NCBI RefSeq assembly: GCF_010389155.1
Contig: NC_057767.1
Coordinates: 24,067,723-24,131,722 of the forward strand
Direction of reading: 5' to 3'
DNA: 64,000 nucleotides
Source: Erigeron canadensis
Lineage: Eukaryota > Streptophyta > Magnoliopsida > Asterales > Asteraceae
Numbering within the stretch: position 1 is the first letter of the stretch; each line of letters begins with the position of its first letter. The notes beneath the pieces are model-generated. The model saw only the letters and a list, made by a program, of their open reading frames with translations, was not told the origin of the DNA and did not search any database. A program made the translations under genes and the position numbers. Positions 5,130 to 44,899 of this stretch are shown piece by piece.

Positions 5130-6774
5130 TTCATACTTGCATGGTTTGCATATTGCGATTATTTTTTGTTATTGATGTCATGTCGTTATATATGTTTGCT
5201 AACAACTTTGACATATGAAATTGATATTTATTTATGGCATGAAATACGAGCAATATAACAGGATGCAAATTGACCGAATCAAAGCTCATCATGTCACAGA
5301 TTACTATTCTTATCATTTTCTATTAATATAGATATATAGATGATCATATTTCAACATTTATAGGTAATTAATTATAATCCTTATTTTTTATTTGGATACA
5401 CTACTACACTTCATGTTGGGAAAATGTCAGCATTGAAATGCACAATGTATACCGACTAAATGTGAATTTACCCTTTATGATTGACTACAAAATGAACGTT
5501 GTTGATTAATAAGGTAAGATTAAAAATTAGCAAAGTATACAAACTTTTTTTAAAAATCTCATGAAAAATTACTACCTTGCTGATGTATTATAACTCCAAA
5601 TGTTTACATAGAGATGCTAAGGCATCTGTTTTTTAGCTTATGTATTTTACATAACCATGGACCATTATGACACTTTCATTCTAATCGGACCAAATGGTTA
5701 GGAGAAAAGTCCCCATCATATACGAAACAGAAAAGTTTTAGATTTTGCCACTAATAAAAACAAGACTCTTAGAGAATGTAGTTCGCACTCAAGGTGGTGT
5801 ACGGCGTCTCGGGGTTACCACACCATGGTATGCGGGCAGAAGGCTTTAGGCGTCATCGGCATTCCATGCGGATTCGGATGACTTAGTTTGTTTGTTTCGG
5901 ATGACGATTTAAATGTGTAAGTGGTACATGCTTTCAATGGAAATGACGCACAATTCATGTTAAGGTCATCTATTGATAGTCAAATTAAGAAACAAATGTG
6001 ACACTAAAGTGGTGACAACCAACATAAAATGAGTTGTTTCACACCTAATGCTTTTAGGAAAACCAATATAAACTTATAACCCAATATAGCATGTAGTTAT
6101 GAACCAGACCCTAAAGGATTCCTTATATTGTATTGTCTTTTTTGTTACTTATGTCTTTATAGCGAAATAGATTATCGATAGACAAGTGGTGTTATTTTGG
6201 ATGTACTTTGGGAATCATAAAAGGTAAGGGACCACGAATGGGGTTTGGTGAGGAAAGAAAACCATTGAAAAGCTTCCTTTTTAAGGGCTTTTGTCCCTTT
6301 TGGGGTACACAATAGATGCTCGAATTGTTAAAATATATGGTCAAATGTACACTTTCACCATCAAAGATGCTTAAACCTCAACTTAGTTGAATAAACAAAG
6401 TCATTGGGACCTATTATCTTAGGTTAGTGTTGGCATAACCTTAATTAATTAGCTATAAATGCCCAAATAGTGTCATTTTAGATCGGATTCTTATTAACTA
6501 TATCCACATATCACATGAGTTAATAGACAAGACAGAAAAAAGAATGGCAAGGTTTGAGTCCTTTGTTGTATTTCGAATGAAGTTAGTGTTTGGAAAATAT
6601 GAATTTATGTTTTATTTATATGTGGTATAAACTAAAATGATGAATGTGTGACTCTTTTGTTGGCAACGATACATTAGGGTCGATGGATCTTATGTTTTTG
6701 TACGAGCCAGGTGTGTTTTATTGTGTGTGGAGTTAGCTGACTTTAAGCTTGTGTTATCAAATTGATTTTCAGTA
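5130..6774. other. Intergenic, no gene seen
   Basis: No conserved coding segment or RNA gene recognised. A GC-richer patch at about 5775-5900 stands out in base composition but has no recognisable content. Confidence 0.55.
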
Positions 6775-10793: not shown

Positions 10794-15727
<4,934 letters not shown>

Positions 15728-16184
15728 TTTGATTTTTTTTTTTTTAAAAAAAGAGAGATTTTTTGAATGTGGGTGTTTTTGTAAAGAGAGAGATAGATAT
15801 AGATGTGTAGATACAGATGAATTTGTATAGATGTAAAACCACTGTTGGATGTTGTTTGGAGGTTTTTTGTATTTTTTATTTTTTAATTTAATATGTTTTC
15901 TTGTTTGTTTGGTGTTTGATGGGATCGTGGCCGTTGTTTTAGTGGTCCCCCATTTGTGAAAATTTTGAATTTTAAATTGGTGATAAGATAGAGATGTTAA
16001 TGTGGTGTTTTCGGCCATGTTTTTTATTTTAAAAAAAAAATCGGTTTAATGAGAGCTGCTTTATGTTAAATCGGTTAAAACATCTGGCTGAGTTACTTTC
16101 AAAGAAAATTGAAACAACTTTTAAGCTTTGGATTATAACGAGTAATTAAAAGTCGAAGATTCAAAGAGAATAAAGGTGTCTCGG

Positions 16185-18232: not shown

Positions 18233-19749
18233 GTCGAGATATCAAAAAACAATGATAGGAATACGGGTTGCATGGTGTTCTTTTCCCCATTCTCTATTGA
18301 ACGATGGGTATTAGTACAATGTAAATGTTATTGTTTTCTTAATTTTTTTCTATTGTTTTAGTGTTAGTATAATGTCCTTCACGTGTTTGTATAATGTAAC
18401 TTTTGTTGATTCCCGTATCTTTTTTTGTATATTTTTAAATTCTCTCTACAAGTTGTAGCTCTTCAATTCGGATTTATCTTCTCTATTCATAAAAATCTCC
18501 ATTAAAATTGGTAATGATTTCCAATCAAGGACATTACATTTCTTCAAATTTTGTTATTAATTTTTTGGTGGGATGTAGCGTTGATTACAAGTCTTACGGT
18601 TTTGGTATTAGCCTACTAACTATTATTTGATTTCTTAGGTTGTACGTACATTTTTGTTATCACGCGATCAACATATTGTTAGCCGGTATTAGTTATTGCA
18701 GTTTTTTATACTATTGGAGGCTTGCCACTTGCATATACTCTTTGGCTCTCATTAGTATACTCAGTTTACATATTTATCGTTGGTCAAAATGCTAAACACT
18801 TAAACCCATGAGTATAGTGGAAATGCTTCTTTGAATGTGCTTTTCAATTCATAACCTTTTGCCCATAGAATATCACGGAAGTGTAACTTATTTGTAGACT
18901 ACACGGGTACCCGCGTGTTGCCGCGACGACGGTCTATAGCGCGTCAGATGTCGTAACGGTTTATAGCGTTCAGGTTACTTTCATGAGATGCGTCAATGCA
19001 ACATCTAACCGTATCTATCATTTTAAAAATAACTCGCGGATTAGGTGCAAGAAATAACGAAATAATGAATTACAAAACTAACCATAAAAAATAACCAATT
19101 ACAATTGTATGAAACATACAATTGTAGGGGAAGGGGGCGAAGGGTTAGTACTTTTTCCTTCTCGTAGCTCTACTTGTCAATTAAAAAGAGCTAGAACAAC
19201 GGGCAATTAAAAAAAATAAATAGTAAAAGATTAAAATTTAATACGAATATAAAAAAAGACGTAATTGGTTAGTAATTTCGTGAGTTATAAAAAAGTAATT
19301 ATTGTTTAAACATTTCGTGATATAATCTATGACAATTAAGATGTTTTTTCTTATCAGTAGCAATAATTTTAAAGTTGGATGAAGTTTTTACCACAATGGG
19401 GTTTCTAGGTAATTGTGGAGTTTTTTTTAAGGGTAATTTTGGAATTTCAGAGATAAGGTATGTGAAGGTAATATAAATTAGAATGATATATTGGACAATT
19501 CAAAGGTAGAGAGTTGAATAGAGAAATGATAGTTTGTTTATATATGGAGTATAGATGTAATTAACTTATTTATTTTCCAATTCTTAGATAAGTCGCGCGG
19601 ATCAAAGGAATTGCTTCAAGGCCCATCAACGTATAGTTACGATAATTTAAAAGTGGCGACAAATAATTACAGCGAGAAAAACAAACTTGGAGGAAGGATT
19701 TTTGGGGAAGTGGATAAGGTAGTATTCTGGTCAATTTTACAAATTGTGA
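18233..19749. other. Intergenic, no gene seen
   Basis: No coding segment recognised. At about 18903-18960 a GC-rich stretch (ACACGGGTACCCGCG, TTGCCGCGACGACGG) resembles one near 49640-49690; such sequences often sit at ends of dispersed plant repeats, but I cannot assign a family. Confidence 0.45.
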
Positions 19750-19757
19750 TTAATTAG
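19750..19757. repeat. Left target-site duplication TTAATTAG
   Basis: Identical 8 bases recur at 28036-28043 immediately outside the opposite inverted terminus of the MULE-like element. Confidence 0.75.
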
Positions 19758-19800
19758 CGCATTGGGTAACACCACCAGGTCAACGGGTAAAACGACCAGG

Positions 19801-19826
19801 TATTAGCGGCGACGTCGCCACTAATA
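19801..19826. repeat. Subterminal palindrome L1
   Basis: TATTAGCGGCGAC followed by GTCGCCACTAATA: near-perfect palindrome centred on GACGTC, 43 bases inside the left end of the MULE-like element. Confidence 0.85.
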
Positions 19827-19901
19827 GTGGGACCCAAAAAACTGACACGTTGCCTTACAGACCGACACTGCAGACCATGTACGAGGAATGCCACGTCACC
19901 G

Positions 19902-19951
19902 CCACGTCACCACCATTAGCGGCGACGTTGCCGCAAATAGTGGTGACGTGG
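19902..19951. repeat. Subterminal palindrome L2 (50 bp)
   Basis: A 50-bp inverted repeat with outer arms CCACGTCACCAC and GTGGTGACGTGG and an inner ATTAGCGGCGAC / GTTGCCGCAAAT core. The outer arm TGACGTGG is a good plant bZIP-type ACGT site, so host factors might bind here; that is inference. Confidence 0.85.
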
Positions 19952-20327
19952 CCACACCTCGGGAATGGTTATTGAATGGTCATTGTACTGGACACCGAAC
20001 ACGGTATTTACAATACTGATATAGTAGTATGTCGTTTAAAAAATTATTATTACAAAGTAATAAAAGTTAAATTTACCTCACTTAAATTAAGTATATCAAA
20101 AAACTGATTTAAGTAAATTTACCACCATTAGCGGCGACGTCGCCGCAAATAGTGGTGACGTGGCCACACCTCGGGAATGGTTATTGAATGGTCATTTGCG
20201 AGGATAGCTGTACTGGACACCGAACACGGTATTTACAATACTGATATAGTAGTATGTCGTTTAAAAAAATTATTATTACAAAGTAATAAAAGTTAAATTT
20301 ACCTCACTTAAATTAAGTATATCAAAC
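19909..20327. repeat. Subterminal tandem duplication, period 212 bp
   Basis: Copy a (19909-20100) and copy b (20121-20327) share palindrome L2/L3, then GGCCACACCTCGGGAATGG, CTGGACACCGAACACGG and TTACCTCACTTAAATTAAG. Copy b carries 12 extra bases (TGCGAGGATAGC) near 20197-20208. The near identity outside that indel indicates a recent duplication inside the transposon end. Confidence 0.9.
20121..20156. repeat. Subterminal palindrome L3
   Basis: ACCACCATTAGCGGCGAC followed by GTCGCCGCAAATAGTGGT, two mismatched pairs. It is the second copy of L2, generated by the tandem duplication at 19909-20327. Confidence 0.85.
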
Positions 20328-20873
20328 ATTTTTGAAATATTTGTCTATTTCGAAATTTATGAAAATGTAATATATTATATAAAAATAACTTAAGTGAAAA
20401 AATACGTAGTAAAAAAATGTAATAAATGATTGGGATTGGAGAATTTTGCCTAACTTAGTTTTTCAATACGTGGATTTATATATAAACTTGAAATTTGAAA
20501 GATTTATATATTATCATACATTTATGATATATTATAATAATTAAGAAGAGTATCATCATCCATGTGTTCCCAATCGATTTTAAAATACATTTATGATATA
20601 TTATAATAATTTATATTTAAAATTTAACATTTACCATTAAACTAAAACAGGATTAAGGTTTCCTTTAGACGACACATGGCGTTTTTATTAAACGACTTGT
20701 GTCATCTTTAATATTATTTACATATATTTAGTTACCTAGAATTATCAAATAACTTTATTAATATAACTTTTTATTAAACTCCTAATACGAAAAAGTCGAA
20801 ACTAATTAATTCTTTATATAAATATATCATATCATATATTGATGGCAATAATTTATATGTATGACTTATGGGT

Positions 20874-20920
20874 ATCTTTATATATACTAAAAGACAGTTG
20901 ACCTAACATTTTATTAACCA
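20874..20920 (+). other. Possible Helitron 5' terminus inside the MULE
   Basis: ATCTTTATATATACTAAAAG followed by ACAG resembles the TC-starting 5' end of the Helitron-like element read on the minus strand at 63174. No matching 3' CTAG end with hairpin was located, so this may be a fragment or coincidence in AT-rich DNA. Confidence 0.3.
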
Positions 20921-21173
20921 ATCACAAAGCTCAATTTTATAAAAGTAAAAATTGATTATGTCATAATTTAATCCTATTAATTATTTAAAGATTTTATTAT
21001 TAATATTAAATATTTATTAATTAATCTATCTATCGAAATCAATTCAATAACAAAGTTATTCAATTCTTATTATCAATATTTTAGAGTGGGTTTAACTTTT
21101 TATCTATTGATATTAATTAATATTTTTTTAGTAGGTTGATATTGTATGACCATTAAAATAAAAACTTAGAACC

Positions 21174-21386
21174 AACTTCAAAATCAATTGGGAGAAACAA
21201 ACTTAGAACCAACTTCAAAACTTAAAACGTATGTGTAGTAACAGTGACATGCCATACTGAAGGAAGTTGGTAATGAAAATTTGTCATACTTTCATTGGAT
21301 AAATTAGTCGTCATGTAGTAACAGTGATGCATGCCATACTTTGTCTACATTGGTAATGAAAATTTGCCATACTTTCATTGGATAAA
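21174..21386. repeat. Short direct duplications upstream of the transposase gene
   Basis: ACTTAGAACCAACTTCAAAA occurs twice (about 21163-21182 and 21200-21219). A ~75-bp unit (GTAGTAACAGTGA ... CATACTTTCATTGGATAAA) occurs at about 21235-21304 and 21315-21387. They are probably internal rearrangements of the transposon promoter side. Confidence 0.7.
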
Positions 21387-21488
21387 ACGATGGTACCCCA
21401 TATTTTTAGATACTATATATGGTACTACGGAACTATATTGAAACAATATAAGTTTATGAAAAAAATTTCTTCAGTATAGATATTTATT

Positions 21489-21608
21489 TTTTCAAGCGTA
21501 TTGTTTCAAGCGTATTTTTTCAAGCGTATTGTTTCAAGCGTTTCAAGATATATATTTTAACAGTATTTGTAGTTGATGGTATTGTATATCTTTCTTTTTC
21601 AAGCGTTT
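21489..21608. repeat. TTTCAAGCGTATT minisatellite
   Basis: Five or six loose copies of TTTCAAGCG(TATTGT) lie in tandem at 21489-21546, with one more near 21597. A TA tract (about 21618-21639) follows. All lie within 210 bp upstream of the MULE transposase start codon and could be part of its promoter or a transposase-binding array; no direct evidence. Confidence 0.75.
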
Positions 21609-21695
21609 TGTTTGTATATATATATATATATATATATATTGAGTATGGACACCATTAATAGTTAATGAGGTTGATGTTTACTTGAATTGTTTCAG

Positions 21696-24600
21696 ATGGA
21701 TAGTTTGGAGGATATTTGGGCAGACCCAGAAAACGTACGTATTGAAGTGCCGGATAATGTGTTTGAGCAACCTGATGCAGACGGTGAATATGAATGCGAA
21801 GCTGGGGACTTTGAAACTGATGAGGTGTTCGGTTCCTTTGAAGAATTAACGGAGTGGGCTCAAAGAACAGCAATGGATTTGGGTTATGTTCTAGTTATAC
21901 GGCGGACGAACAAAAACTCAAAAGAGGTGGTGAATAAAGTGACACTTATATGTCACCACGGTGGAGCGCGCGATGTAAGGTTAATTGGCCCACCCAAACG
22001 GTCCAGTAAGATAGGTTGTCCCTTCACTTTAATAGGCCGCCCTGTGCGTGATGGTGGTTGGAGGTTAACTGTCAAGGATTGGAGACACAATCATGATCCA
22101 ACTACCAATCTGCAAGGGAATGCATACGCCAGACGGATGACGGATGAAGAAAAGGAATTTGTGCGGACCCAATCGGATCGCGGTTTGTACCCACATCAGA
22201 TCCTGGTAAACCTCAAACTTGAATTTCCAGGAAACTTGACTCGCAAAGGAGACATTACGAACTTCTTAAAAGCGAGAAGAAGGTCGGGGCAAGCAGGGCG
22301 TACTCCAATGCAGGTACAAACATTAAATATTCTATTCTACTACGTTGTTGGAATTGACTTAGTCATTAATCGCAGGTTATGTTTTCACTATTGCAAGAGA
22401 AAAGGTACTTTTACCAGTTCACCACAAATAACAAAAATGGACGCTTGGAGAACCTTTTTTTCATTCATCCAACATCAATGACCCTATGGCGCGCATTTCC
22501 CTGGGTTATTGAAATAGACTCCACCTACAAAACTAACATCTACAACATGCCGCTAGTTGAGATCGTCGGCGTGACTTCAACGGGGAAGACCTTCAGTTTA
22601 GCGTATGCGTTTATCGTAAACGAGCGGGAGGCAAATTATCAATGGGTTTTACGATGTCTTCGGTCCACCCTTGCTGATAGCTTTGCTGTTCGTGTCGTTC
22701 TTACTGACAGGGAGCTAGCGCTGATGAGAGCTTTGAAGGTTGTTATGCCGGAAGCGAAACATCTGCTGTGTAGGTACCATATATGGCAAAACATAATCAA
22801 GCACTGCGAACCGGCATTGCGGATGAAAAAAGATGTTAGCATTGACAGGCTTAACTTTTGGTGGAAAAAAGTCTATCAGTCTCGGACTTTTGACGAGTTT
22901 AAGTCAAATGAGAAGGAGTTAAAGGAAAAACTTGCGGGTTTTCCAGGCGTCTACAAGTACGTGACCGATAATTGGTTGTCCCCAAACCGAGAGCAGTTTG
23001 TGTCCTGTTGGGTCGATGAACACCTCAACTACCAAAACCACACCACAAACAGAGTGGAGGCCGAGCACCATTTACTGAAGGAAGAATTGAGGGGGAAATG
23101 CACATTTACTAGAATCCTCCAATGTGTTGATTCCGTCTTGATAAGTCAAGAAGCAGAAATAAGGGGCCAACTGGGGTATAGCAACGGGACCCGGAAGGGG
23201 AAACATAATTACAACTGTATGAAGGACCTGTTGGGAAAGGTTTCACTTAAAGCTTTGGACATCATGGCTGATGAAATTTTACGCTTAGACAAAGTCCTTA
23301 AAAGACAGGTTAACAAATGTGGGTGCAAGGTTCAGTCCAGTTGCGGGCTACCATGTGCCTGTAAGATTGCCGAGTACATGCAGCGCAGTTAGTACGATTT
23401 ATTACTTGTATTTTTTCATCAAAAGGACATAATTTCGTTGACTTATTTATATAAAATAAATGCAGGGACTCGTATACAGCCTCATGTCATAGACCCTTTT
23501 TGGAAAAAGCTTGACTTAACACCGTGGACATGCGTAGAAGACGAAGACGAAGAAGACGATGTCCATGAAGTCGTTGATGGTCTTACGAATTTCTTGGATC
23601 AGCAACCCAAAGCTCAAAAGAAACATTGGTTGTCAAAAATTAAAGACATGTTTAAGCCTGGTAAGACACAAGTGAAAGATCCTCTTGTTCAAAAGACCAC
23701 ACGCGGAAGACCAGTCGGCTCGAAACAAAAGCCGCCAAAGGTATACATAATACATCTAAAAAAATATTTGTCTTATTCAATAAATACATTATATATAACT
23801 ACCTTAGTTAAGGAAACTGATTCTTACTAATGGTCTAGGTGCCGGATCTCAACACCAACCCACCTGGGCTACGAAAATCCAAGTCCAGTCGACCTGGGGA
23901 ATATAAGGTGCCAGATTTGAATAAACCCCCACCTGCGCATCCTGCCAGACACAGTACGTACGAGCCGTCCCAGTCCTGTCGTTATCCCGAAAACCGAAAA
24001 TTGTTCGACGATCAATTCCACCCTGAATCAGAATGTGTCAAAGATAATCCTGACATTTTTGGAAACCTGCACCCATATCCAGGTCTTGATGATATATATA
24101 CGTGGGGGGACCCGTCCCAATCCTACGGGGTCGGGGATACACCATATGTGACACAAAAATTATATGGATTCGGCGATACGTCCCAAGACCATTGGCTCAA
24201 CTATGACCAACCATATTCCAACTTAGTAGATGACATCTTCGGGCCACCACCTACACAATCTAGAAATGCACCCATATATGAATCAAGGCAGGCGCAGGTT
24301 TCGGATCCGGATTCAGAGGCACAGTCATCGGCCAGTTGGGTTGGGTATGTTGCGGAACCGTATAACGCCAGTCTTTCCAAAAATTACGATTGGGTACTAG
24401 GTGAGATACCATCGTACTTAAGGCCGTACGTTGTAGGCGCACAAAATGTCAAAGGAGACGGTAACTGTGGATTTCGAGCTACCGCTGTAGCTTTGGGGCT
24501 AGATGAGGAGATGGGTGCAGAGTGGGTTCGTACGCAGATGCTCGCGGAGTTTGAATCTGACCTCGATGGGTACATGCAAATGTTTGGGCAAACAGAGGGC

Positions 24601-25017
24601 AACCGAATGTTGTCGGCGCTGCGAACATCTTATTATGGACGAAGCCGGCCCACACATCATTGGATGAGTAAAGTGTGGTTCCATATCATCCTGACTAATA
24701 AGCTGGGTATAATAGTCAACTGCGTTAGCCTACGTGACCCCCGCACAGTATTTCCGATGCATCACGGCTTAGATCAGCTGTTATTCAAACAACCGATAAG
24801 TATTGCTCTGATAAACAACGAAACCCATTTTGTTGCAGTGAAATTAGTAGGCGACTACCCAATGGCCTACAAGAATCCGGAATGGGATTTTCACGCAACC
24901 GATCCTGCACGTCGACTAGCATTAATGTACGCAAATCAAGAAGATGCGTATCAAAATTGGTTGTACGCAAACATGCCAAGAGTACCACCAGGCCCTCCTA
25001 TTATAATAAATGATTAA
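21696..25017 (+). CDS. MULE transposase with FAR1-type DNA-binding domain and C-terminal OTU protease domain
   Basis: Putative transposase of the enclosing element. Exons: 21696-22313 (206 codons), 22376 to about 23392, 23466-23740, 23839-25017. Exon 1 encodes an acidic start, then a FAR1-like zinc-binding region (CHHGG ... KIGCPF ... WRHNHDP). Exon 2 encodes the RNase-H-like MULE core: IDSTYKTN and LTDRELALMRAL carry two catalytic Asp, and NRVEAEHHLLKEE the likely Glu, with CRYHIWQN between; it closes with a Cys-rich SWIM-like segment (CGCKV ... CGLPCACKIAEYM). Exon 3 is acidic then basic, with KTTRGRPVGSK, an AT-hook-like motif. Exon 4 is Pro/Tyr-rich, then an OTU-type protease domain with GDGNCGFRA (catalytic Cys) and ETHFVAVKL (catalytic His). 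Total about 1030 residues. Oddity: the exon 2 donor is not canonical and an in-frame TAG lies at 23390-23392, so this copy may end there or carry a splice mutation. Introns 1 and 3 have clean GT-AG sites. Confidence 0.8.
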
Positions 25018-25309
25018 ATTCTTTCAATGTTTTATATAGGCTGTTTGTATGTATACTTTTTTTATTGTATATATTTTTTATTTATTTAAGTTGTTCCAAA
25101 ACAAGTTTCAATCAATAATTTTTCATATTTTTCTGTTGTACATACATTGACTCTATAATACTCTTCTAAAGTTGATTCCAATCATTTTTTTATCAACAAA
25201 TGTATAAAAACATAAAAAATTACAAATGATTATATCACAGAAATCAAGATTATAAAAGGAAATCACACTTCAGTTGAACGATGAATACAAACAATAAAAA
25301 AAGGGAAAA
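25018..25309. other. Convergent intergenic gap with both 3' ends
   Basis: 292 AT-rich bases between the stop codons of the two MULE genes, which point towards each other. It must hold both poly(A) regions. No other feature seen. Confidence 0.7.
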
Positions 25310-26810
25310 CTAATCACTTTCATCATCACTATCACTATCACTATCACTACCCAACCGCTGTGTGGGGGCCCGTGACGTGCTAGGCCCAGCATGGGATGAT
25401 GACGTGCTAGGTCCGGCTTCGAATGATGACTGGGTCCAAGGGCTACCCTGGGCGAACATATCATTGATGTTAAAGGACGGTGACTGCTGGGCTGGGAAGG
25501 GTTGCTCTATATCCTCTGGGAGGGGGACATTCAGTCCACGTGTTCCCCTAACTACACGCCCAACCACACGGGTATGTCCCGATCGTGTCCCTAAAGCGTC
25601 CACATATGTCTGCGTAGGCGGTGTATTGGGCACTTGGGAAAGTCTTTGGTGGGTATCAAGAAGCCGCTCCTGTAGCACATGAAAATTAAGTTAATAATTA
25701 CTAAAAATTAGTTATACTTAATATAAATATACCAAAAAAAATTCTTTCTCCAGGATTTGTGCAAGATCTTACATAAATGGGCATAACTGCGTCCTGCACC
25801 ATCCCATCTCGTCTCGTGTGGGCCCGCAAATAAAACTCGGGCGGCTCCTCACGTCGCCCGTCATTATCTTCCTGTATATACATTAATCAAAGTTATATAT
25901 TTGTATGTGTATCTCTGTATAGATATATGTTTAAGTACGTGGATATAAATAATTACGTATAACTTACAGCGTAACGCCATTCACGCTGAGCGTATGACTG
26001 CCGACCGTGAGTACTGACAAAAGTATTTTGTTGCTGCCTGTTTGTCGTGTTTCTTTGGGCAGCAATCATCCGGGGCTCGCTGGTCCAGTAACCCAGTAGA
26101 TAACTCCACGCCTGTGGAGGCATCCCATACGGAGGTTGACCCTCCAGTTCTGCCAGCCTCTGGGACCCACCCCTGTCAGTGAACCAAGTCTTCTTGAATT
26201 TTGCTTTTTTATCCCTGTAGATCTTCAGGGCATCCTGACGTATCATCCTGGTCACGGCCTCTCGTAACGGGTGATTTTCTGGGTGACCTAGATATGGTTC
26301 TAAGTAGAACCGTCTCTGCAATAGTACCAAGTAATAGTTAGCATCTACCATTTTTTTTAAATAAAGTATTTAAAAAGTAAAAAAAATTAGTTTTATACCA
26401 TAAGCCAGTCAGTAAGTCCATCCTTGATGGGCTGGGGCACCTGATCCCACGACTCGTAGTTATATGGGACGGTAGTGACATAGGTTCCCAAATAGCTCTT
26501 GTACCACTTGGCGTGGTCCCCGATTGCCTGCCACCTACTTAGATCGTTATTCAACATAAGCGAGATTCGGCGTCCCGAATTCTGAAACTCGCGCTCCAGA
26601 TCGTTGTTAGCAGCAGCAGCTCTCCCTGTGCTAATACCTGCAAAACAAAATAAAATTACATATATATATATATATATACATATGTACCATATATTTATAT
26701 GCATCGTACATTAATATATACTTACCATCCGTACGCCTACAACCCCATTCGGGATTCCACCCCCTGTTTGGAGGGTCGTTGCCACCATCTCCGCCGTGAA
26801 GTGCAGCCAT
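25310..26810 (-). CDS. Transposase_24-like (Ptta/En/Spm family) accessory protein of the MULE
   Basis: Second gene of the element, convergent with the transposase. Five exons join with canonical GT-AG sites and consistent phase: 26810-26726, 26637-26399, 26315-25968, 25871-25773, 25669-25310, giving 376 residues. The order of blocks matches plant 'transposase Ptta/En/Spm' proteins (PF03004-like): a Gly/Asn-rich start, NNDLSRWQAIGDHAKWYKSY, SWDQVPQPIKDGLTDWLM, an Arg/Lys-rich helix, then WSYLLGYWTSEPRMIAAQ with NTTNRQQQNTFVSTHGRQSY, a THxRxDG segment (RAHTRRDG), and a tail with YVDALGTRSGH and an acidic Ser/Asp-run C terminus. No catalytic triad is visible. The real function of such proteins is unsettled; by analogy with two-gene transposons a DNA-binding helper is likely. 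The acceptor of exon 3 (26315) was chosen to keep frame; one further upstream breaks it. Confidence 0.75.
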
Positions 26811-27440
26811 TTTAACTTACATCAGCCATCCCAATTTATAAAATAACATAAACAAACATAAAAGTCATAAAAAAGGTGCGACCTAAATTAACATATTTTG
26901 GACACAAATTTGTTTTCCAAAATTATTATACCTAAAATGACCACTTTTTTGCAACTTTTTTTCAAACCTTCGTTTATAACATTAATACTAACCTAATAAC
27001 AACTATATTAACAATTACAATCATACTAAAAAGTGTTTTCTAACTAAGAATCATACTTTGAACTATAATAAACAATAATTATAACTACAAATGTTTTCTT
27101 AAATATTTATGAATTTCTATAAATCATATCATTCCTAACTATAATAACATAAGTAATCTTTCCTAACTATAAAACTATAACATTTCTATAACTAATACTT
27201 TCTAACATATATTTACTAACACTTGTTCCTAACATATATTTTATATAACATTAAACTATAACATTTATATAACTAATATTTTATAACACATATTTTTTCT
27301 AACTTTTTTTTTCAACATATATTTTCTAACAAAAAAATACAACAATTCTATAACTAATAATTTCTATAAGAAATTAAAATTTGATAACATTATTATATAT
27401 AAAAAAGTAAATGAGTGTTACCTCGTCTAAAAAATGGATT
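26811..27440. other. AT-rich upstream region of the minus-strand MULE gene
   Basis: 630 bases of very AT-rich DNA with recurring TAACATATATTTT-like text (27180-27350). It presumably includes the promoter and 5' leader of the gene starting at 26810; no clear TATA box can be singled out. Confidence 0.5.
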
Positions 27441-27668
27441 ACCGGAAAAAAGAGTAGAACAAATAACGGATGGTTGGCCGGAAAAAATATTAGTCGCCGG
27501 AAAACAATATCGCCGGAATAAACCGGAAAAGTTTCAAATCTGTTTTCCCGTATATCAATGGTGGAAAATAGGTTCCCCGCAAAACTGGTACGCCGGAAAA
27601 TATAATCGCCGGAAAAATGTCGCCGCTAAAAATACGCCTGAAAATGGACTCCGGGAGGCCGGAAAACG
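27441..27668 (-). promoter_or_regulatory. Cluster of TTTTCCGGC motifs
   Basis: On the plus strand CCGGAAA(A) appears about eight times in 230 bases (near 27442, 27477, 27497, 27525, 27594, 27610 and 27660, plus the variant CGCCGGAATA near 27512). It lies between the right palindromes and the minus-strand gene. Such density in AT-rich DNA suggests a binding-site array for transposase or helper protein, or a promoter element. The open frame through it (27415-27693) is explained by the repeated motif and is not a convincing gene. Confidence 0.5.
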
Positions 27669-27866
27669 TAGGTGGTGTAAAAAAGAACGTTGATAATGAT
27701 GATGAGGGGATAGATGGTCGGATTTGTGAGTTATAGTAATGGAGAATAATGGATTTTTTGGAGAAATTAAAATTTTTTACGGAGGAGTAAAATGGAGAAG
27801 ATGAACGAAGAAGAAGAACAAAGAGGCTGCCTTGTTTATATCGATGATGGATCTGTAGTGGGGGGA

Positions 27867-27902
27867 CCCACTATTTGCGGCGACGTCGCCGCTAATAGTG
27901 GG
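27867..27902. repeat. Subterminal palindrome R2
   Basis: CCCACTATTTGCGGCGAC followed by GTCGCCGCTAATAGTGGG, one mismatched pair in 36 bases, preceded by GGGGGA. Confidence 0.9.
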
Positions 27903-27956
27903 CTCCACAACCACACGTGATTCGGCCAGTTAAACCCGTTGACTGACAGATGGGGA

Positions 27957-27992
27957 CCCACTATTAGCGGCGACGTCGCCGCTAATAGTGGG
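27957..27992. repeat. Subterminal palindrome R1 (perfect, 36 bp)
   Basis: CCCACTATTAGCGGCGAC followed by its exact reverse complement. It is 43 bases from the right end of the element, the same distance as palindrome L1 from the left end. Confidence 0.95.
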
Positions 27993-28035
27993 TGGTTGGG
28001 TTACTACTTTTTCCCTGGTCGGGTTACGCGCTTCG

Positions 28036-28043
28036 TTAATTAG
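28036..28043. repeat. Right target-site duplication TTAATTAG
   Basis: The partner of 19750-19757. The perfect match suggests the insertion is not very old. Confidence 0.75.
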
Positions 28044-29690: not shown

Positions 29691-30180
29691 TGAATATAGA
29701 AATCTGTAGATTGTGGAAACAAAAGCATGAAATTTTATACCATTTCTCATCATTGTTTGGTTGTTTAAACACTCAACCAACCACCAATAATATCCATAAT
29801 CATCTTTTACATTTTATTAGAAGAACATACAATTACACAATAAAAAAAACATTGGCCCTGGGAAGGGAACCGGAACTGAATAGGTATCGGTTTGAACACT
29901 GCGCCGACCCTCCAGTACCGGTAGGGTGGGGAGCGTTTTGGTGACCACTATGCCGATTTCCCTGCATATTGATTCGACCATTACACGTTTAATTATAAAA
30001 AAAAACATGGGACCCACAAAAGCAACGACTCTCGTCTTTCTTCTTCTCTTTCTCTTTCTCTTTTCTTTTCTTTCTTTCTTCTTCTTTGCTTCTGCTGATT
30101 TCTTTCTTCATCTCCATCTCTTTTAATTTCTTTTTTTTTTCTTTCAATCCAACAATCAACAATCACAAAAATCACAAAAA

Positions 30181-31407
30181 ATGAATAGAGGGAAGAAACA
30201 AAAGGATCCAGTTTTCTCCAATCTACCAAAAAAACGCAAAAACCAACCACCTCCAAACAATCGCGAAGTTATGTCACCTCCTCCTTCGCAAAAAAACACC
30301 AACGAAGATTCTTATAGACCACAACCCGTTGATGAATTCTTGAGTGGGATGGATCCCTTGTTTTTCGAACCCACCCCGGGTTTTCGCAATTTGCGGGTGG
30401 TTCATCTTCACAACATTACGAAGAGGTTCAAGAAGAAGAAGAAAAATAAGAAGAGGAGGTCGATGAGGAGGAAGATGAAGCAATACCCGAGACCCAAGTA
30501 TCGGTTAAAGGTAAAAGAGAGTGTCGTGGATGGGGGAAGGATGAAAAAGAGTTTGGCAAAAGCTTGGTTAAGCGTTTCCAAGGATCCATACACTGGAAAT
30601 GCCCAAACGGCAGGATCATGTTGGAAAAAGGTGAAGTTTGAGATGGATAGACACTTGAACCGTGATTCGGGACATACCCCGGAAATGTGTCGGTCTAAAT
30701 GGAAGGATTTGAAACATAAGGTGTCAGGTTTTTGTGGTATCTACAATGTTAAGAAAAGTAAGATGTCGAGTGGCCAAAGTGACGAGGATGTGTTTAAGGC
30801 GGCTGTGGCATTGTATATGCAGAAATACAATAACAAGTTCGGGTTTCCGCATGTAGAGGTGTGGCAAATTTTGAGGAAAGGGCCGAAATGGGCGGAGGTT
30901 CTTACCTTGGAGAGGATTTGTGAAAAGTTGGGTAGCAAAAGGACAAGAACGGAAGGGTCAAATGTCAATATCCGTTTATCGAGGGAGGCATCGGTCCATG
31001 TTGACTTAAACGAGGACTAGGTGGATCAAGAAGGGGAAAGTGGGAACGACATCGATGCACCAGTAGAGCCTGCTATACCCGTGCCACCCCGTCGTAGAGC
31101 TAAGGGTAAGCAACCGTCTACATCCGCCTCCACCAAATCTGAAGAATTCTTGAAGATGGTCTCCGAGTTGAAATGCGACAATGAGGATAAAAAGCTAATT
31201 CGAGAGGAGATTATTCAGATGTAGAAGGTGATGATGGATAGCTATATGGCGGCAAAGGAGGCTAGGAAAAAACGGGAGCAGGAGATGACACGGATGGTCC
31301 AGAGTCAGCAGCGACAGAACGATATGGACTTCGTGGTCAGGCCACACGATCACCTCAGCGGGCCGATGTTTGGAGATGTTTTTGGCGCAGAAATGCGCCA
31401 TTTGTGA
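30181..31407 (+). pseudogene. SANT/NAM-like protein pseudogene (PIF/Harbinger ORF1 type)
   Basis: The frame from the ATG at 30181 encodes a Pro/Asn-rich start (SGMDPLFFEP), then a Myb/SANT-like domain of the kind found in plant PIF/Harbinger second proteins and 'NAM-like' host relatives: AKAWLSVSKDPYTGNAQTAG, FWxKV-like SCWKKVKFEMDRHL, MCRSKWKDLKHKVSGFCGIY, EDVFKAAVALYMQKY, and the tail block EVWQILRKGPKWAEV. The C-terminal region (SEEFLKMVSEL ... EARKKREQEMTRM) is the usual coiled helix. The gene is broken: in-frame TAG at 31018-31020 and at 31222-31224, and the stretch 30390-30550 reads in the wrong frame. In the next frame that stretch gives an acidic segment (EEEVDEEEDEAIPE) and KRECRGWGKDEKE, which is what the family has, so two compensating indels are present. 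The last stop is at 31405-31407. Probably a dead transposon gene. Confidence 0.75.
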
Positions 31408-31624
31408 GCAGTACGAATGGTCGTTGCCTTAGTTTATGTTGTTTAAGTTGTATGTTGTTTAAGTTGTATGTTTTACTTGTTTTATGTGTTTGAATAAATG
31501 ATTATATGTTTTGTGTTTTAAGTTGTATTTTTAATTTATTAAATAAAATGTTTTTGTTTATTTTAAATAAAATAAGTAGAAATTAAATTAAATAGAAAAG
31601 GGTGGGGAGGGGAGGGATGTTTTT
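31408..31624. other. AT-rich spacer up to the Copia fragment
   Basis: Possible 3' region of the SANT-like pseudogene. Includes a short repeat (GTTTAAGTTGTATGTT twice at 31440-31472). Confidence 0.4.
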
Positions 31625-33525
31625 GCATACTTTGTTGGGATGTTTTGGATCAATAAAACCTTCCGGTTGATCCATATAGACTTCTTCATCCAAGTAACCA
31701 TTTAAGATGGCAGTCTTAACATCCATTTGCCATATCTCAAAGTCATAGTACGCTGCTATGGCTAAGAGAATCCTAATAGCTCTTATGTCCGCAACTGGAG
31801 AAAAGGTTTCATCATAATCAACACCGAAATGTTGAGTATAACCTTTCGCCACGAGACGAGCTTTATAGGTGTGTACATTTCCATCCATGTCAGTCTTCTT
31901 CTCGAAGATCCACTTACACCCAACAGTTTGAGCATTTTGTGGAAGATCAACCAAGCTCCAAACTTGATTGTCTTTCATGGATTTCATTTCCACCTTCGTA
32001 GCTTCAAGCCATTTGTCAGATTCCGTATCTGATAATGCAGCTTTGAAATTTGGAGGCTCATCGAGATATCCAACAACGTCTTCTTCTACCATTAGACATA
32101 GTCTTTCGGTAGGACGTCTTGTCCTTTCGGACCTACGAAGTGGAATCGCTTCATTATCATCGACTTGAGGTTCATCACTTTGAACATTTTCCCCCCAAGT
32201 TGATGATTGCTAGTATCCTCAGAAGGTGACACATCTTCCTCTTGAGTCTCATCAAGTTCTACAACCCTCTCACTGTTCTCTTGAACTAACTTCTTTTCAA
32301 AGAATTCAGCATATCGAGCAACACGAACAGTGTTTTTGGCGGGATCATAGAAGTCGTAACCCATCGTTTCCTTAGGGTATCCGACAAAGATGCACTTAGT
32401 AGTTCTGGGTTCAAGTTTGTCAGGCGTATCGCGCTTCATAAGTGCCTCACATCCCAGACTCTTAAGTAAAACAAATTAGGGACATCACCATGCCATAATT
32501 CGTACGGTGTCTTGTCAACCTTCTTGGTTGGAACCATATTGAGAATGCGTACAACAGTCTCTAGAGCATAATCCCAAAACGAAAATGGGAGAGTTGTACG
32601 GGTCATCATTGATCTTTCCATGTCTAACAAGGTTCGATTTCTCCTTTCAGATACTCCATTATGCTGAGGAGTATATGGAGGAGTAAGCTGTTGGATAATT
32701 CCACATGCTTTAAGATAATCCTTAAACTCTTGGCTTAAGTATTCACCACCTCGATCCGAACGAAGAATCTTGATGGTTTTGCTGAGTTGATTTTCTACTT
32801 CATTTTTAAACTCTTTGAATGTTTGAAAGACTTCATGTTTATGTTTAAGCAAGTAAACATAACCATAACGACTTAAATTATTCATAGAATAATGAAGTAG
32901 CTAGCATTTTTCCTTGACATATGTCTAAAAGGGCTACATACATCGATATGTATTAGTCCAAGTAGTTCCTTAGCCCTCTCTGGTTTTATGCGGAAAGGGT
33001 ATTCTTGTCATCTTACTGAAAACACAAGACATGCATTTGTCAAATGATTCATGATTTGATTGTAAGATCCCTTCACGTTGAAGTTTTTCAATGCTTTTCT
33101 TGCTAACGGTAATTCGAAAGACACGCATTTATCAAATGATTCATCATTTGATTTATAAGATCTCTTCACATTGAAGACTTTTAATGCGTTTCTTGCTAAT
33201 GATAATGCCGAAGACACGCATTTATCAAACGATTCATCATTTGATTTGTAAGATATCTTCACATGGAAGTCTTTAAATGCGTTTCTTGACAAAATTTAAA
33301 CAAGATGACCATGTCAAAGATAGAGTCCAAGTTAACTTGACTCTTTTGCTATTGAATTATCATTTGAATCTCATCAACACTTATAATTCAGTTAAGAAGA
33401 TACTCGAAGAACTGGTTAAACCAACTTGCTTCTTCTTCTTGTTCAACTCAGCTAGATACTTAGGACAATTCCTCTTCCAGTGTCTCACTATAGCATAGTG
33501 ATGACAAGACTGGTCTTTAGCCGTA
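31625..33525 (-). pseudogene. Copia gag-pol remnant (integrase and N-terminal RT)
   Basis: Recognisable minus-strand pieces: zinc-knuckle tail HYAIVRHWKRNCPKYLAE near 33520, gag-pre-integrase ESFDKC motif, integrase core with [15 protein letters not shown] and YTPQHNGVSERRNRT (33000-32440), the FVGYP block (32380), and RT up to QMDVKTAILNGYLDEEVYM (31740-31680). Frames change at about 32436 and 32092 and upstream of 32885, so the polyprotein is broken in several places. It ends at the codons for NKVCK near 31625. Confidence 0.85.
33029..33292. repeat. Triplication of a ~92-bp segment inside the Copia gag-pre-integrase region
   Basis: GACA(C/T)GCATTTRTCAAAYGATTC recurs at 33029, 33120 and 33213 (spacing 91 and 93), each followed by CATCATTTGAT...AAGAT..CTTCACAT..GAAG. 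On the minus strand each unit encodes SNDESFDKC. The element normally has this segment once. Confidence 0.85.
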
Positions 33526-40590: not shown

Positions 40591-40817
40591 GTAACATCTA
40601 AGTGGAGCCTAATTTTAGCTTATGGTTTTGGTGTTTACTATGCGTACTTATCACTTGCTTCATTAATATAATGGTCACAGTCTCATAACTTTAGGAACAT
40701 TAGGCATACTTAATTTAGTTCCATTACTCTAAGAGACCTCACTTAGTCCGCTTTACACAGCTAACTACGTCACTATAAATAACCTTCTTTAACTCGTATC
40801 GTAAATTCATATCCTCT

Positions 40818-43800
40818 TTGTCTCCACTGTCAGTACCTAACTTTGGCATTGAGCCACTCACTGGCGTGAACTATGCTTCTTGGAAGGATCAACTAATGCT
40901 GACTCTAGGCATGTTAGATTACGACCTTGCCATTCGTCAGGATGAACCTGCTGCCATTATCGAGCAATCCACTAGGGAGCAGAAGGCGGCTTATGATAGA
41001 TGGGAAAAGGCGAATCGATTATCACTTAGGCTGGTCAAGAATACAATCCACCTCAGCATCCGAGGAGCAATTCCTGATTCTGACAAGGTGAAGGAATACC
41101 TCAAATCTGTAGAGGATCATTTCAAGGGATCATCGAAGGCGCTGGCAAGTAATTTGATGCTGCAAATGCTTACTCTGAAATATGATGGTAGCAGTGGTGT
41201 TCGTGAACACATTATGAAGATGACTGACATGGCTAATAAGCTTAAGAGCCTTGAAATGGAAGTGTCGGATAACTTTCTTGTGCACTTCATAATGACATCC
41301 TTACCTGCTCGTTTTGACACCTTCAAAGTGAATTACAATGCTATGAAGGATAAGTGGTCAACGAGTGATCTAATTTCGATGTGTGTGCAAGAGGAGGAAC
41401 GCCTCAAACTGGCACAGCCTGAGTCTGTTCATCTTACCACCACTGCTAATTCTAAGAAAAGGAAGGGTAGATCTGGTAATTCTGGTAATAAGAATGCAAA
41501 TAAAGTCCCTAAGACCAATCCTGGTGCAGTTGCTTCTAGCTCTAATCCCTTGAGTGGCAAACTTCATTGTAAATTCTGTCGTGCAAATGGGCACACTCAG
41601 AAAAATTGCCCTAAATTCAAGGAATGACTAGCTAAGAAAGGTAACGTACTTTATGCAATATTTGATTCTTTTATGACTGATGTACCTATTAATACATGGT
41701 GGGGTGACTCTGGTTCTATGGTTCATGTGACCAACTCAATGCAGGGATTTCTTACAATCCAGAAGCTACCAAAGGGCCAAAGAAAACTTAGAGTTGGAAG
41801 TGGTGATCTCTTAGATGTTGAAGCCATAGGAACCTTAATTTTACATATGAGTACCAGAAAGACTATTAGACTAGTAGATACCTTATATGTACCGAGAATT
41901 ACTCGGAATCTTGTATCTATTGGTAAACTTGATCTTGAAGGTTATGTAATGATTCATGGTAGCGGCAAGATTGCTATTACTTTAAATAATGAATTGCTTG
42001 GTCGTGGTTTTTTGGATGGATTACTGTATAAATTAGAATTAGATCATAAATTTTCCTAGTCTTTGTTGTCTCTTAATGTTGATGATGTAACTAAAACAAA
42101 GACAAAATCACCCAAGAAATTGGAGAATTCCTCTATGTTGTGGCATAAACGTCTTGGCCACATCTCACAAGATCGCATGAAACGAGTCGTGAAAGATGGA
42201 ATCTTACCTTCTCTCGATTTCAGTGATTTTGAAACATGTATTAAGTGCCTTAAAGGCAAAATGGCTAAAGGTAACAAGAAAGGAGCCACTAGGAGTTCCA
42301 ACTTGTTGGAAATAATACACACTGACATTAGCGGCCCTTATTCCACATCAATCACTGGTCATACATCATTTATTACATTTATTGACGATTATTCGCATTA
42401 TATGCACCTGTATTTAATTAAGGAAAAATTTGAGTCTTTACAAACTTTTATTGATTATAAAACTATGGTTGAAAACCAACTCGATCGTAAAATAAAAGTT
42501 GTAAGATCAGATAGGGGAGGTGAATATTATTGCAGACATACTGACATTGGTCAAGCTCCTGGTCCTTTCCATAATTATTGCAAAGACCATGGCATTATTA
42601 ACCAATACACCATGCCTGGTTCTCCTCAACAAAATGGTGTTGCTGAAAGGAGAAACCAAACCTTAATGGACATGGTGAGAAGTATGCTTGCCAACACCAA
42701 CTTACCTAATTTCCTTTGGATTGAGGCCTTAAAAACAGCCGTTCATATACTCAATAGGGTTCCATCCAAATCTGTCCCTAAAACTCCTCATATATGAAAG
42801 TATGGGGGTGTCCTGCCGAAGCTAAAATCTATAACCCAAACCTAAAGAAACTGGACCCTAAAACCATTACATGTTTCTTTGTTGGTTATCCAGATAACTC
42901 AAAAGGTTATCGGTTTTACTGTCCTACCCATACTACTTCCATCACTGATACGCAACATGCTACTTTTCTTAAGAACTCAGAGATTAGTGGGAGCACGACA
43001 AATCATAACTTGGATTTGCATGAAGTACAAGATGCGGGGGGAAACCACTCGTCGGTTATTAGTCCTCCGATAATTCCTCTTGTACCCAACGCTGCTCAAA
43101 CCACTGATCAACCTTCTCCTAATCACAACGCTGCTAATATCAATGATCCTCCTTCTCCTAATCAGAATCCTCCTCCTAATCATAATGTTGATGCTGAGAA
43201 TAATGAAGGACCTTCCGTTACAGAACCTGAAATTCAGCTTAGAAGATCATCCAGGTAACGAAGGGCCACAAATTTTGATGATTATGTCACCTTCTTAGCT
43301 GAAGATGAGGACATTGGAAAGCTTACTGATCCTACCTCTTATCAAGAAGCCATTAATAGTGACCAAGCCTCTAAATGGAATGACGCCATGATTGAGGAGC
43401 TTAATTCCATGAAACATAACGACGTTTGGGATTTGGTTGAACTTCCTGAAGGATCCAAACCAACAGGTTGTAAATGGGTCTTCAAAACCAAACTAGACCT
43501 GAATGGAAATGTTGAACGCTATAAGGCTAGACTGGTTGCAAAAGGCTATACTCAAAAGGCTGGAATTGATTATCAAGAGACCTTTTCTCCTGTGTCTCGT
43601 AAAGATTCCCTAAGGATCGTCATGGCACTAGTAGCTCATTTTGATCTTGAGTTACATCAGATGGATGTCAAGACCGCTTTTCTTAATGGAGACTTGGAAG
43701 AAGACGTATACATGTGGCAGCCTGAAGGATTCATTCCAAAAGGTAAAGAGCACATGGTCTGCAAGTTGAAGAAGTCCATATATGGGTTGAAACAAGCGTC

Positions 43801-44899
43801 ACGTCAATGGTACCTTAAGTTCGATGAAGTCATGAAAGGACAAGATTTCTTAAAGAATCCAGTGGATCAATGCACCTATCTCAAGATCAGTGGGAGTAAC
43901 TTCATAATCCTTGTTTTGTACGTAGATGACATCCTACTTGCAAGTAACAACTTGGATATGCTGCATGAAACGAAGCGCATGCTTTCGCAGAATTTTGACA
44001 TGAAAGATCTCGGTGAGGCCTCTTATGTCATAGGTATCGAAATACACCGGGATAGGCGTAATGGTGTTCTAGGTCTTTCTCAAAGGGCCTATATTGACCG
44101 TATTCTGGAATGCTATAAAATGCAGGACTGCTCACCCACTATAGCTCTAGTAGTCAAAGGAGATGTATTCGGTTCTTTCCAAACCCCGAGTACTGAGATT
44201 GAAAAGGAGCAGATGAGGGTGATACCTTATGCATCTGTAGTTGGGAGCATTATGTATGCTCAAGTCAGCACTCGACCAGATATCGCTTACATCGCCGGTA
44301 TGCTAGGACGTTATTTGTCTAATCCTTGATTGGCACACTGGAAAGCGGCTAAAAAGGTTCTAAGATATCTGCAAGGGACCAAAGACTACAAACTAACTTT
44401 TAGGAGTGATGACTTAGAAGTAGTAGGATATTCAGATTCCGATTTTGCTAAAAGCAAAGAGGACAAGAAATCTACTTCTGGATATATTTTCATGTTAGCT
44501 GGCGGACCTATCTCTTGGTGGAGTCATAAACAGAAACTGATTGCAACGTCCACCATGATGGCTGAATATATTGCCGTTTACAATGCCACTTGTCATGGGA
44601 TGTTGTTAAGGAACCTTGTCAGTGGACTTAAAATCGTCAATTCTATTTCTAGACCATTGAAGCTTTACTGTGATAACTCAGCTGCCGTAACTTTCTCGAA
44701 CAGTAATAGTTCGACTGGTGCTGGACTGTACCTCGATACAAAGTATCTGTTTGTACGCGAACGGGTTGAGGAAAATGTTCTTTGTATTGAGTACATAAGT
44801 ACAAATGATATGCTAGCGGATCCGATGACCAAAGGTCTTCCTCCTAATATCTTCATAGGACATGTGTCGAAGATGGGGCTCACAAAAGATTTAATTTAA
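40818..44899 (+). pseudogene. Copia gag-pol polyprotein, broken by stops and one frameshift
   Basis: Domains in order: gag with NYASWKDQLMLTL and zinc knuckle CKFCRANGHTQKNC (to 41610); protease with WWGDSGS (41700; usually DSGA/DSGC); gag-pre-integrase [10 protein letters not shown] (42150); integrase with [28 protein letters not shown] (42310-42660); reverse transcriptase with QMDVKTAFLNGDLEED and the catalytic YVDDILLASN (43660-43950); RNase H with YSDSDFA, TSTMMAEY and CDNSAAV (44430-44700). Lesions: TGA 41625-41627 (after KFKE), TAG 42057-42059, a frameshift with TGA at 42795-42797, TAA 43256-43258, TGA 44327-44329. The 5' start is unclear because no ATG begins the frame just upstream of VPNFGIEPLTG. 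Apart from these lesions, conserved residues are well kept, so inactivation looks fairly recent. Confidence 0.9.

Follow-up and report, generated by a model that had tools for sequence, protein, structure and literature searches.

A MULE of Erigeron canadensis with an OTU-fused transposase, a PF03004 partner gene and element-specific palindromes

Second genes in antisense orientation are known from MULE transposons (PMC6446971, PMC9168764), the ORFR of Abermu being said to be unlike MURB (PMC9168764). The MUDR group is listed with target-site duplications (TSDs) of 9-10 bp and, mostly, an antisense PMD open reading frame (ORF), the Jittery group (group 36, dicot and monocot sub-group) with an 8-bp TSD, an N-terminal FAR1 and a SWIM or CCHC C-terminus (PMC6446971, Table 1). 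An OTU domain has been noted for a Hydra MULE (PMC6446971); Ginger1 transposases, whose listed hosts are animals, carry a C-terminal OTU or Ulp1 (PMC2836005), and for Kaonashi, Ulp1 is described as encoded apart, by a gene of the VANC type (PMC13317346). Work on lettuce CACTA elements took PF03004 as its marker for tnpA (PMC8195511), and the domain maps to the C-terminal region of the Tgmt* protein predicted in soybean; according to the latter study, TNPA recognizes subterminal repeats, and TNPA and the repeats both diverge (PMC2613891). Here, we describe an element at positions 19758-28035 of a 64,000-nucleotide stretch of Erigeron canadensis DNA (the window, at C7:24067723 of the 426-Mb host genome searched, G000), in which an OTU-fused MULE transposase and a PF03004 protein are encoded between the same termini.

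The element is a genuine transposon and one copy of a family. Neither of its two genes contains stops or small indels in the window copy, and we regard it as a potentially autonomous MULE with split machinery. A first-pass annotation of the window had already described an exact 8-bp target duplication, imperfect ends (16/22) and two converging genes. These observations were confirmed; the interpretation placed on them was supported in part only.

19758..28035, no strand: whole element, 8278 bp
19750..19757, no strand: left TSD, 8 bp, TTAATTAG, exact
28036..28043, no strand: right TSD, 8 bp, TTAATTAG, exact
19758..19779, + strand: left terminal inverted repeat (TIR), 16/22 versus the right end
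28014..28035, - strand: right TIR, 22 bp, imperfect
21696..25017, + strand: gene 1, 4 exons, 1027 amino acids; in order, FAR1/AFT-like N-terminus, MULE DDE transposase, SWIM-like finger (by eye), linker, OTU domain
24340..25014, + strand: OTU domain (modelled stretch) with Asp, Cys (GDGNCGFR) and His (THFV)
25310..26810, - strand: gene 2, Transposase_24 (PF03004), TNPA-type, 5 exons, 376 amino acids, starting MAALHGGDGG
25968..26315, - strand: gene 2 exon 3 (core exon), dN/dS 0.17 among copies

The TSD is within the 8-11 bp expected for MULEs, both in the window and in the seven of 18 copies with both ends in which an exact 8-bp TSD was found. Long TIRs, which are common in MULEs but not universal, are absent, the repeats being 22 bp long with 16/22 matches; TIRs of 14-500 bp, and groups without TIRs, are listed for MULEs (PMC6446971). 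CACTA termini are likewise absent, since the element ends in GGCATTGGG and CGAAGCGCG and has a TSD of 8 bp.

The two genes recur as a unit. Around matches to the transposase, 20 loci of 10 kb were fetched (one, L009, off-centre); an open exon 2 (the one encoding the transposase) was the criterion for selecting them, and neither the OTU domain nor gene 2 was selected that way. Both family ends were present in 18 of the 20 (only the right end in L009 and L011), and gene-2 exon 3 in 15. The five copies without this exon show five different junction pairs and, thus, look like internal deletions, so that, for this set of copies, an ancestral form lacking gene 2 was rejected; in two of the five, the inner breakpoints almost coincide (element positions 5277 and 5289). 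One further copy, L026, retains gene 2, with its OTU domain almost wholly lost. Genome-wide, the transposase exon gave at least 135 rows; for the gene-2 exon, the best 150 of 312 candidates were used. Pairing was counted on 119 of the 135 transposase rows, 16 second-half fragments being left out. A convergent gene 2 lay within 9 kb of at least 69 of the 119, whereas 200 random draws (in which the length of contig C3 was approximate) averaged 0.245 such pairs and never exceeded 3. Broken down by transposase identity, at least 45/70 rows at 89% or more, 16/31 at 71-88% and 8/18 at 55-70% were paired; all these counts are lower bounds because they rest on the best rows of longer lists. Among the matches listed, three gene-2 matches lay near transposase rows in non-convergent arrangements. 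The first-pass annotation had held that different end points in other copies, or two genes never found together, would speak against it; the copies end alike, and the intact, spliced, converging pair seen in the window recurs between the same termini.

Gene capture is frequent in MULEs, and a nested second gene is what the same annotation had named as its refutation. That gene 2 is a nested or captured hitch-hiker we consider extremely improbable, and we rejected it as strongly disfavoured by co-occurrence with the transposase and by selection: four classes of gene 2 hold the same convergent position, the gene is under purifying selection (dN/dS 0.17), and its relatives were found in the further loci L030, L031, L033 and L034. 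Three of these (L030, L033, L034) have both genes and the OTU domain, and L031 has both genes, its OTU exon not having been found. In L032, gene 1 was found, and no OTU domain or gene 2. L029 contains gene 1 with the OTU domain, a gene-2 last exon recognized by eye, and then foreign-looking DNA. This last stretch (L029:5750-9000), unrelated-looking by eye, probably reflects a nested insertion of ~2.4 kb.

Selection was estimated as dN/dS among 16 to 21 sequences, the window included, with 95% intervals from a codon bootstrap; these intervals are rough because pairs of related copies are treated as data. The ratio was 0.17 (0.08-0.32) for the PF03004 core exon, 0.46 (0.29-0.74) for the OTU domain, and 0.29 (0.20-0.43) for the transposase exon, the latter being biased downward because copies had been selected for an open exon 2. 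Both proteins have been under purifying selection during the spread of the family, at least in the transposase, OTU and gene-2 core exons.

The transposase half of the FAR1/MULE assignment made in the first pass is secure, the MULE domain being above the Pfam cut-off (PF10551, 8.5e-26; also PF00872, 3.9e-6) and the DDE residues Asp, Asp and Glu being present in 21/21 sequences of the alignment of family copies. The FAR1 half is not, as the window protein matches FAR1 below the Pfam cut-off (E = 0.012); in its relative P0001, FAR1 reached 24.9 bits, under the cut-off of 28.1 bits, and AFT (PF08731) was above cut-off. Pfam on the full gene-1 protein did not report OTU, the OTU stretch is distant in sequence from Pfam OTU (E = 0.077), and a phmmer search of the PDB with the OTU exon returned only two weak, unrelated matches. 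Structure comparison of the modelled stretch shows that, in the model, the C-terminal domain of gene 1 has an OTU fold. A false OTU call was rejected on that basis, and the domain named in the first pass stands. The linker in front of it (23839-24339) evolves fast between subfamilies (dN 0.47/dS 0.48 for L030, dN 0.39/dS 0.87 for L033), and the domains flanking it are constrained.

Judging from this fold and the observed Asp, Cys and His, the probable role of the domain would be ubiquitin removal, its substrate being either the transposase itself or host factors of silencing or repair at the element; activity and target are what we infer. A module that binds ubiquitin or serves self-processing, without being an active deubiquitinase, would fit the distance to Pfam OTU, as well as the Tyr found where the Cys is expected in the Tripterygium relative P0005. 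Against it, Asp, Cys and His are all kept in 18/18 family sequences scorable at the three sites, window included (20 have the exon; L018 lacks the Asp codon, L026 lacks the sites in the alignment, and L025 lacks the exon), and in 7/8 aligned public MULE-OTU fusions. We regard such a module as rather unlikely.

Gene 2 converges with gene 1, the two ending at 25310 and 25017, respectively. That this helper is of a type otherwise linked to CACTA elements, as claimed in the first pass, was borne out: it matches Transposase_24 (PF03004) at 6.3e-10 (39.8 bits versus a cut-off of 28.7), and no other Pfam family, including any PMD family, was above cut-off. The Pfam search of the element proteins gave no match to Transposase_21 (PF02992), and neither protein matched the Ulp1 peptidase PF02902 at E<=1. 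The public Erigeron canadensis protein P0026, which is 96% identical over 72% of gene 2, also carries PF03004.

Both ends of the element have an ordered architecture, GTAACCCGACCA motifs followed by 26-bp palindromes, which is an addition to the first-pass account.

19766..19777, + strand: GTAACACCACCA, first of two end motifs in tandem (best form GTAACCCGACCA), putative site for the transposase
19787..19798, + strand: GTAAAACGACCA, second of these two end motifs
28016..28027, - strand: right end motif GTAACCCGACCA
27993..28004, - strand: right end motif, second copy GTAACCCAACCA
19801..19826, no strand: subterminal palindrome TATTAGCGGCGACGTCGCCACTAATA
19914..19939, no strand: second left palindrome, degenerate
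20126..20151, no strand: third left palindrome, inside a local duplication of the window copy
27872..27897, no strand: right palindrome, inner
27962..27987, no strand: right palindrome, outer, TATTAGCGGCGACGTCGCCGCTAATA, type A, perfect 26 bp

Both ends of 18/18 copies have a GTAACCCGACCA-like motif (at least 9/12 positions) that begins 8 bp in, or in two cases 20 bp in, with a second one 17-23 bp further in 12/18 left and 15/18 right ends; the background is 0.047 per 200 bp per strand. In L029, L030, L031, L033 and L034, of which the left ends were scored, with start points set by eye, the motif pair is likewise found. Palindromes with the core GGCGACGTCGCC lie mostly ~50 and ~150 bp from the left and ~67 and ~155 bp from the right end. 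The core was found 42-52 bp from the left end in 17/18 copies and at least once near the right end in 17/18, and no core was found outside the elements in the 18 loci scanned. In the 64-kb window, only three palindromes passed the scan, all within the element. Other families have a similar core with different flanks, namely TTTCCGCGGCGACGTCGCCGCGGAAA in L033, near copies of it in L030, and TTTAGGAGCGAC-N-GTCGCTCCTAAA in L034.

With moderate confidence, we read this arrangement as a MULE with split machinery, in which a DDE transposase works on the end motifs, the OTU domain deubiquitinates, a TNPA-type gene-2 protein works on the palindromes, and a module was exchanged in one subfamily. The gene-1 transposase would cut and insert (the 8-bp duplication is seen, catalysis follows from its family) and its probable binding sites are the GTAACCCGACCA motifs of the two ends, because these are kept in 5/5 families, with the transposase exon down to 51-58% identity. 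A symmetric dimer of the gene-2 protein probably binds the palindromes located ~50 and ~150 bp inward of either end, as suggested by the homology of the protein, the purifying selection, the symmetry of the palindromes, and the exclusive match of palindrome type and gene-2 class described below. By analogy to CACTA TNPA on subterminal repeats, such binding would help to pair the ends and/or to lift silencing. Alternatively, gene 2 could be an anti-silencing factor of the VANC type, which binds the palindromes and demethylates the element without a direct role in cutting or joining. VANC of VANDAL MULEs binds short motifs in non-coding regions, with which coevolution has been proposed (PMC5735166), and the palindromes of the present family are CpG-rich and situated in the non-coding ends. 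However, VANC motifs are short, of single orientation and in dense arrays (PMC5735166), unlike the usual one to three palindromes at fixed places per end, and gene 2 matches PF03004 and no other family above cut-off; we deem a VANC-type function unlikely.

The genome holds at least four classes of gene 2. Classes B and C overlap in their identity to the window (41-44% versus 40-42%) and were split by query range (to about residue 112-116 versus about 109-110) and by the length of the frame, once the palindrome sites had been listed. The type-B palindrome has 50 sites genome-wide (reversed control, 0). Considering distances up to 9 kb and the best 150 of 312 gene-2 rows, a type-B site was near 11/12 class-B rows versus 0/138 other rows, which include 13 short or partial ones at 82% or more, 13 at 53-79% and two others that were scored separately. 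The type-A palindrome, scanned with up to three mismatches, has 911 sites (reversed-pattern control, 0), which, compared with the at least 119 transposase rows used, suggests many short non-autonomous relatives. The first 50 exact type-A sites listed (on C1, and on C2 to 34.8 Mb) were near 11/22 class-A and 3/8 intermediate (53-79%) gene-2 rows, and near 0/13 rows of classes B, C and D of that region. Several of these listed sites are paired, 72-182 bp apart.

In one subfamily, gene 2 and the ends appear to have been exchanged together, as a module, on the background of a common transposase. The gene-1 exons of L030 differ from the window at dS 0.37-0.48 (dN 0.08 in the transposase, 0.22 in the OTU domain and 0.47 in the linker), those of L033 at dS 0.32-0.52 (linker 0.87). 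Gene 2 differs at dS 2.4 to saturated in L030 and 2.2 to saturated in L033, values above 2 that misalignment at ~40% protein identity may inflate. Because L030 and L033 belong to one subfamily (dS between them 0.06 in the transposase exon and 0.03 in the gene-2 core), this is one event seen twice. L031 has an older transposase (exon-2 dS 0.58, other exons 0.35-0.90) but a gene 2 at dS 0.59-0.83, and one of its palindromes is nearer to the window type (3 mismatches from type A, 8 from type B); its gene-2 alignments span 60 and 64 amino acids, its two remaining palindromes are degenerate, and no OTU exon was found in it. At C2:9260984, a transposase of 82% identity, as distant as that of class B, accompanies a gene 2 of 75% with exact type-A sites on both sides. 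At C2:9464242, a transposase of 71% accompanies a gene 2 of 53-65% and one exact type-A site. These two elements set the two variables, transposase and gene 2, apart. A candidate mosaic copy at C9:3356320 was rejected, its apparent identity of 84% being caused by a frameshift (L035). More generally, the PF03004 TNPA-type protein, common with CACTA, could be an exchangeable end-specificity subunit, swapped together with its palindromes while the OTU-fused transposase is kept. We put this forward tentatively, as a possibility that is on balance doubtful; if true, substrate specificity would be re-targeted by the joint exchange of a helper and its binding sites.

The transposase could also read both motif types itself, gene 2 being a loosely linked accessory whose class merely tracks the subfamily. 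Indeed, type-B sites were near 10/18 transposase rows at 81-86% identity versus 0/30 rows topping the list, so that the transposase subfamily is associated with palindrome type, too, and copies lacking gene 2 persist (which help in trans could also explain). Conversely, gene 1 of L030 and L033 is close to the window by dS and gene 2 far; among the eight rows at 81-86% that lack type B are C2:9260984 and C2:27905689, both with exact type-A sites close by (some of the eight are perhaps class-A copies lowered by frameshifts, as L035 was); and the transposase at 71% has type A nearby as well. We hold it to be distinctly unlikely that the transposase is the reader of both. Still, because most class-B elements are one transposase subfamily (81-86%), the association by itself does not fully tell whether gene 2 or gene 1 reads the palindrome; the choice rests on dS and three intermediates, L031 and two known by coordinates only. 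Together with the caveats on dS and on L031, several other observations weigh against the split machinery as we propose it. Types A and B have a common core and differ at only 6/26 positions. At C5:26433473, a class-B row lacks a neighbouring type-B site, and around 20 of the 50 type-B sites there is no class-B gene 2 and none of the transposase rows used for this comparison (12 of the 18 at 81-86%). Among the best 150 of 312 candidates, no gene 2 was found for 50/119 transposase rows. Many copies contain stops (gene-2 exon 3 in 4/15 loci, OTU exon in 5/19) or small indels, an exact TSD is missing in 11/18 copies, dN/dS of the gene-2 last exon (0.61; 0.35-1.05) is indistinguishable from neutrality, and the structure model of gene 2 was too poor for a search (pLDDT 48.7).

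Nine of the 20 isolated type-B sites form four groups spanning ~500-620 bp (C4:30182274-30182879, C7:15238908-15239529, C8:19962328-19962850 and C9:24227912-24228422), with no listed class-B gene 2 near; these are probably short non-autonomous derivatives resembling miniature inverted-repeat transposable elements. The window copy is longer than the others because a region on its left side is largely missing from them, 13/18 other copies with both ends being 6.8-7.6 kb in size.

19962..21304, no strand: region of which the 20 further copies fetched lack the greater part, in part a duplication

About 230 bp of this region are similar to a stretch in L028. In the left flank (19533-19757), a reading frame that by eye looks like a receptor-like kinase (YSYDNLKVATNNYSEKNKLGGRIFGEV) enters the insertion site; this 74-amino acid piece matched nothing in Pfam, and the element may have inserted into a kinase gene or gene fragment. 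To the right, at a distance of 2.1 kb, a 297-amino acid frame (30127-31020, + strand) resembles Harbinger SANT/NAM-type proteins by eye and had no Pfam match at 0.001. The window further contains two stretches that by eye are Ty1/copia-like retrotransposons (31583-32900, - strand; 40779-44899, + strand), with a match to RVT_2 at 43259-44326 (4.9e-78), and two host-like genes, for a 14-3-3 protein (15230-16045, - strand; 1.1e-55) and for Vps62 (59347-60099, + strand; 1.4e-81).

Compared with described systems, the element resembles the Jittery group in its 8-bp TSD and MULE domain and, putatively, in a SWIM-like motif and a FAR1-like one that is below the Pfam cut-off. On the features listed for that group (PMC6446971), it differs from it: one ORF is given there, no OTU or PF03004 partner appears in that listing, and TIRs are 39-292 bp or none, versus 22 imperfect bp here. 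With maize MuDR (mudrA/mudrB), it has in common two convergent genes inside one MULE. The architecture had initially been called MuDR-like, which holds as an analogy only: the TSD is 8 bp and gene 2 is a PF03004 protein without a PMD family, versus the 9-10 bp and, mostly, an antisense PMD ORF listed for the MUDR group (PMC6446971). A PF03004 protein and subterminal repeats near both ends recall the tnpA-tnpD pair of CACTA (En/Spm) elements (PMC8195511, PMC2613891), from which the absence of CACTA ends and of a Transposase_21 match, the TSD of 8 instead of 3 bp and the MULE transposase set it apart. VANDAL elements are likewise plant MULEs, have VANC as an accessory protein and contain short motifs in their non-coding parts (PMC5735166), and Kaonashi brings a ubiquitin or ubiquitin-like protease theme into a plant MULE (PMC13317346). 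Here, however, gene 2 is PF03004, and the protease of Kaonashi is Ulp1 in a separate gene (PMC13317346).

The view of the first-pass annotation that OTU replaces a SUMO protease was not borne out, given also that OTU occurs in the Hydra MULE (PMC6446971) and in Ginger1, and that OTU-MULE fusions exist in other eudicots. Ginger1 likewise joins a DDE transposase to a C-terminal OTU cysteine-protease domain, yet its transposase is of the Gypsy-integrase type and of another superfamily (PMC2836005). The MULE-OTU fusion as such is not new: it is present in public proteins of several eudicots, those of Centaurea, Lactuca, Tripterygium, Citrus and Aquilegia (P0001-P0003, P0005, P0007, P0009-P0011) having MULE followed by OTU in one protein, with 25-33% identity to the OTU stretch of the window; they are known here from proteins alone. 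In the open-licence PMC literature searched, no paper joining OTU, FAR1, MULE, cysteine protease and transposase was found, nor a report of PF03004 inside a MULE; within that literature, what is new is the PF03004 partner in a MULE, held together with element-specific palindromes. The four or more classes of gene 2 in this genome, together with dozens of copies and palindromes specific to each family, constitute a natural test series outside CACTA, and the conserved deubiquitinase-type domain on a plant transposase gives a handle on why ubiquitin and SUMO proteases recur in transposons.

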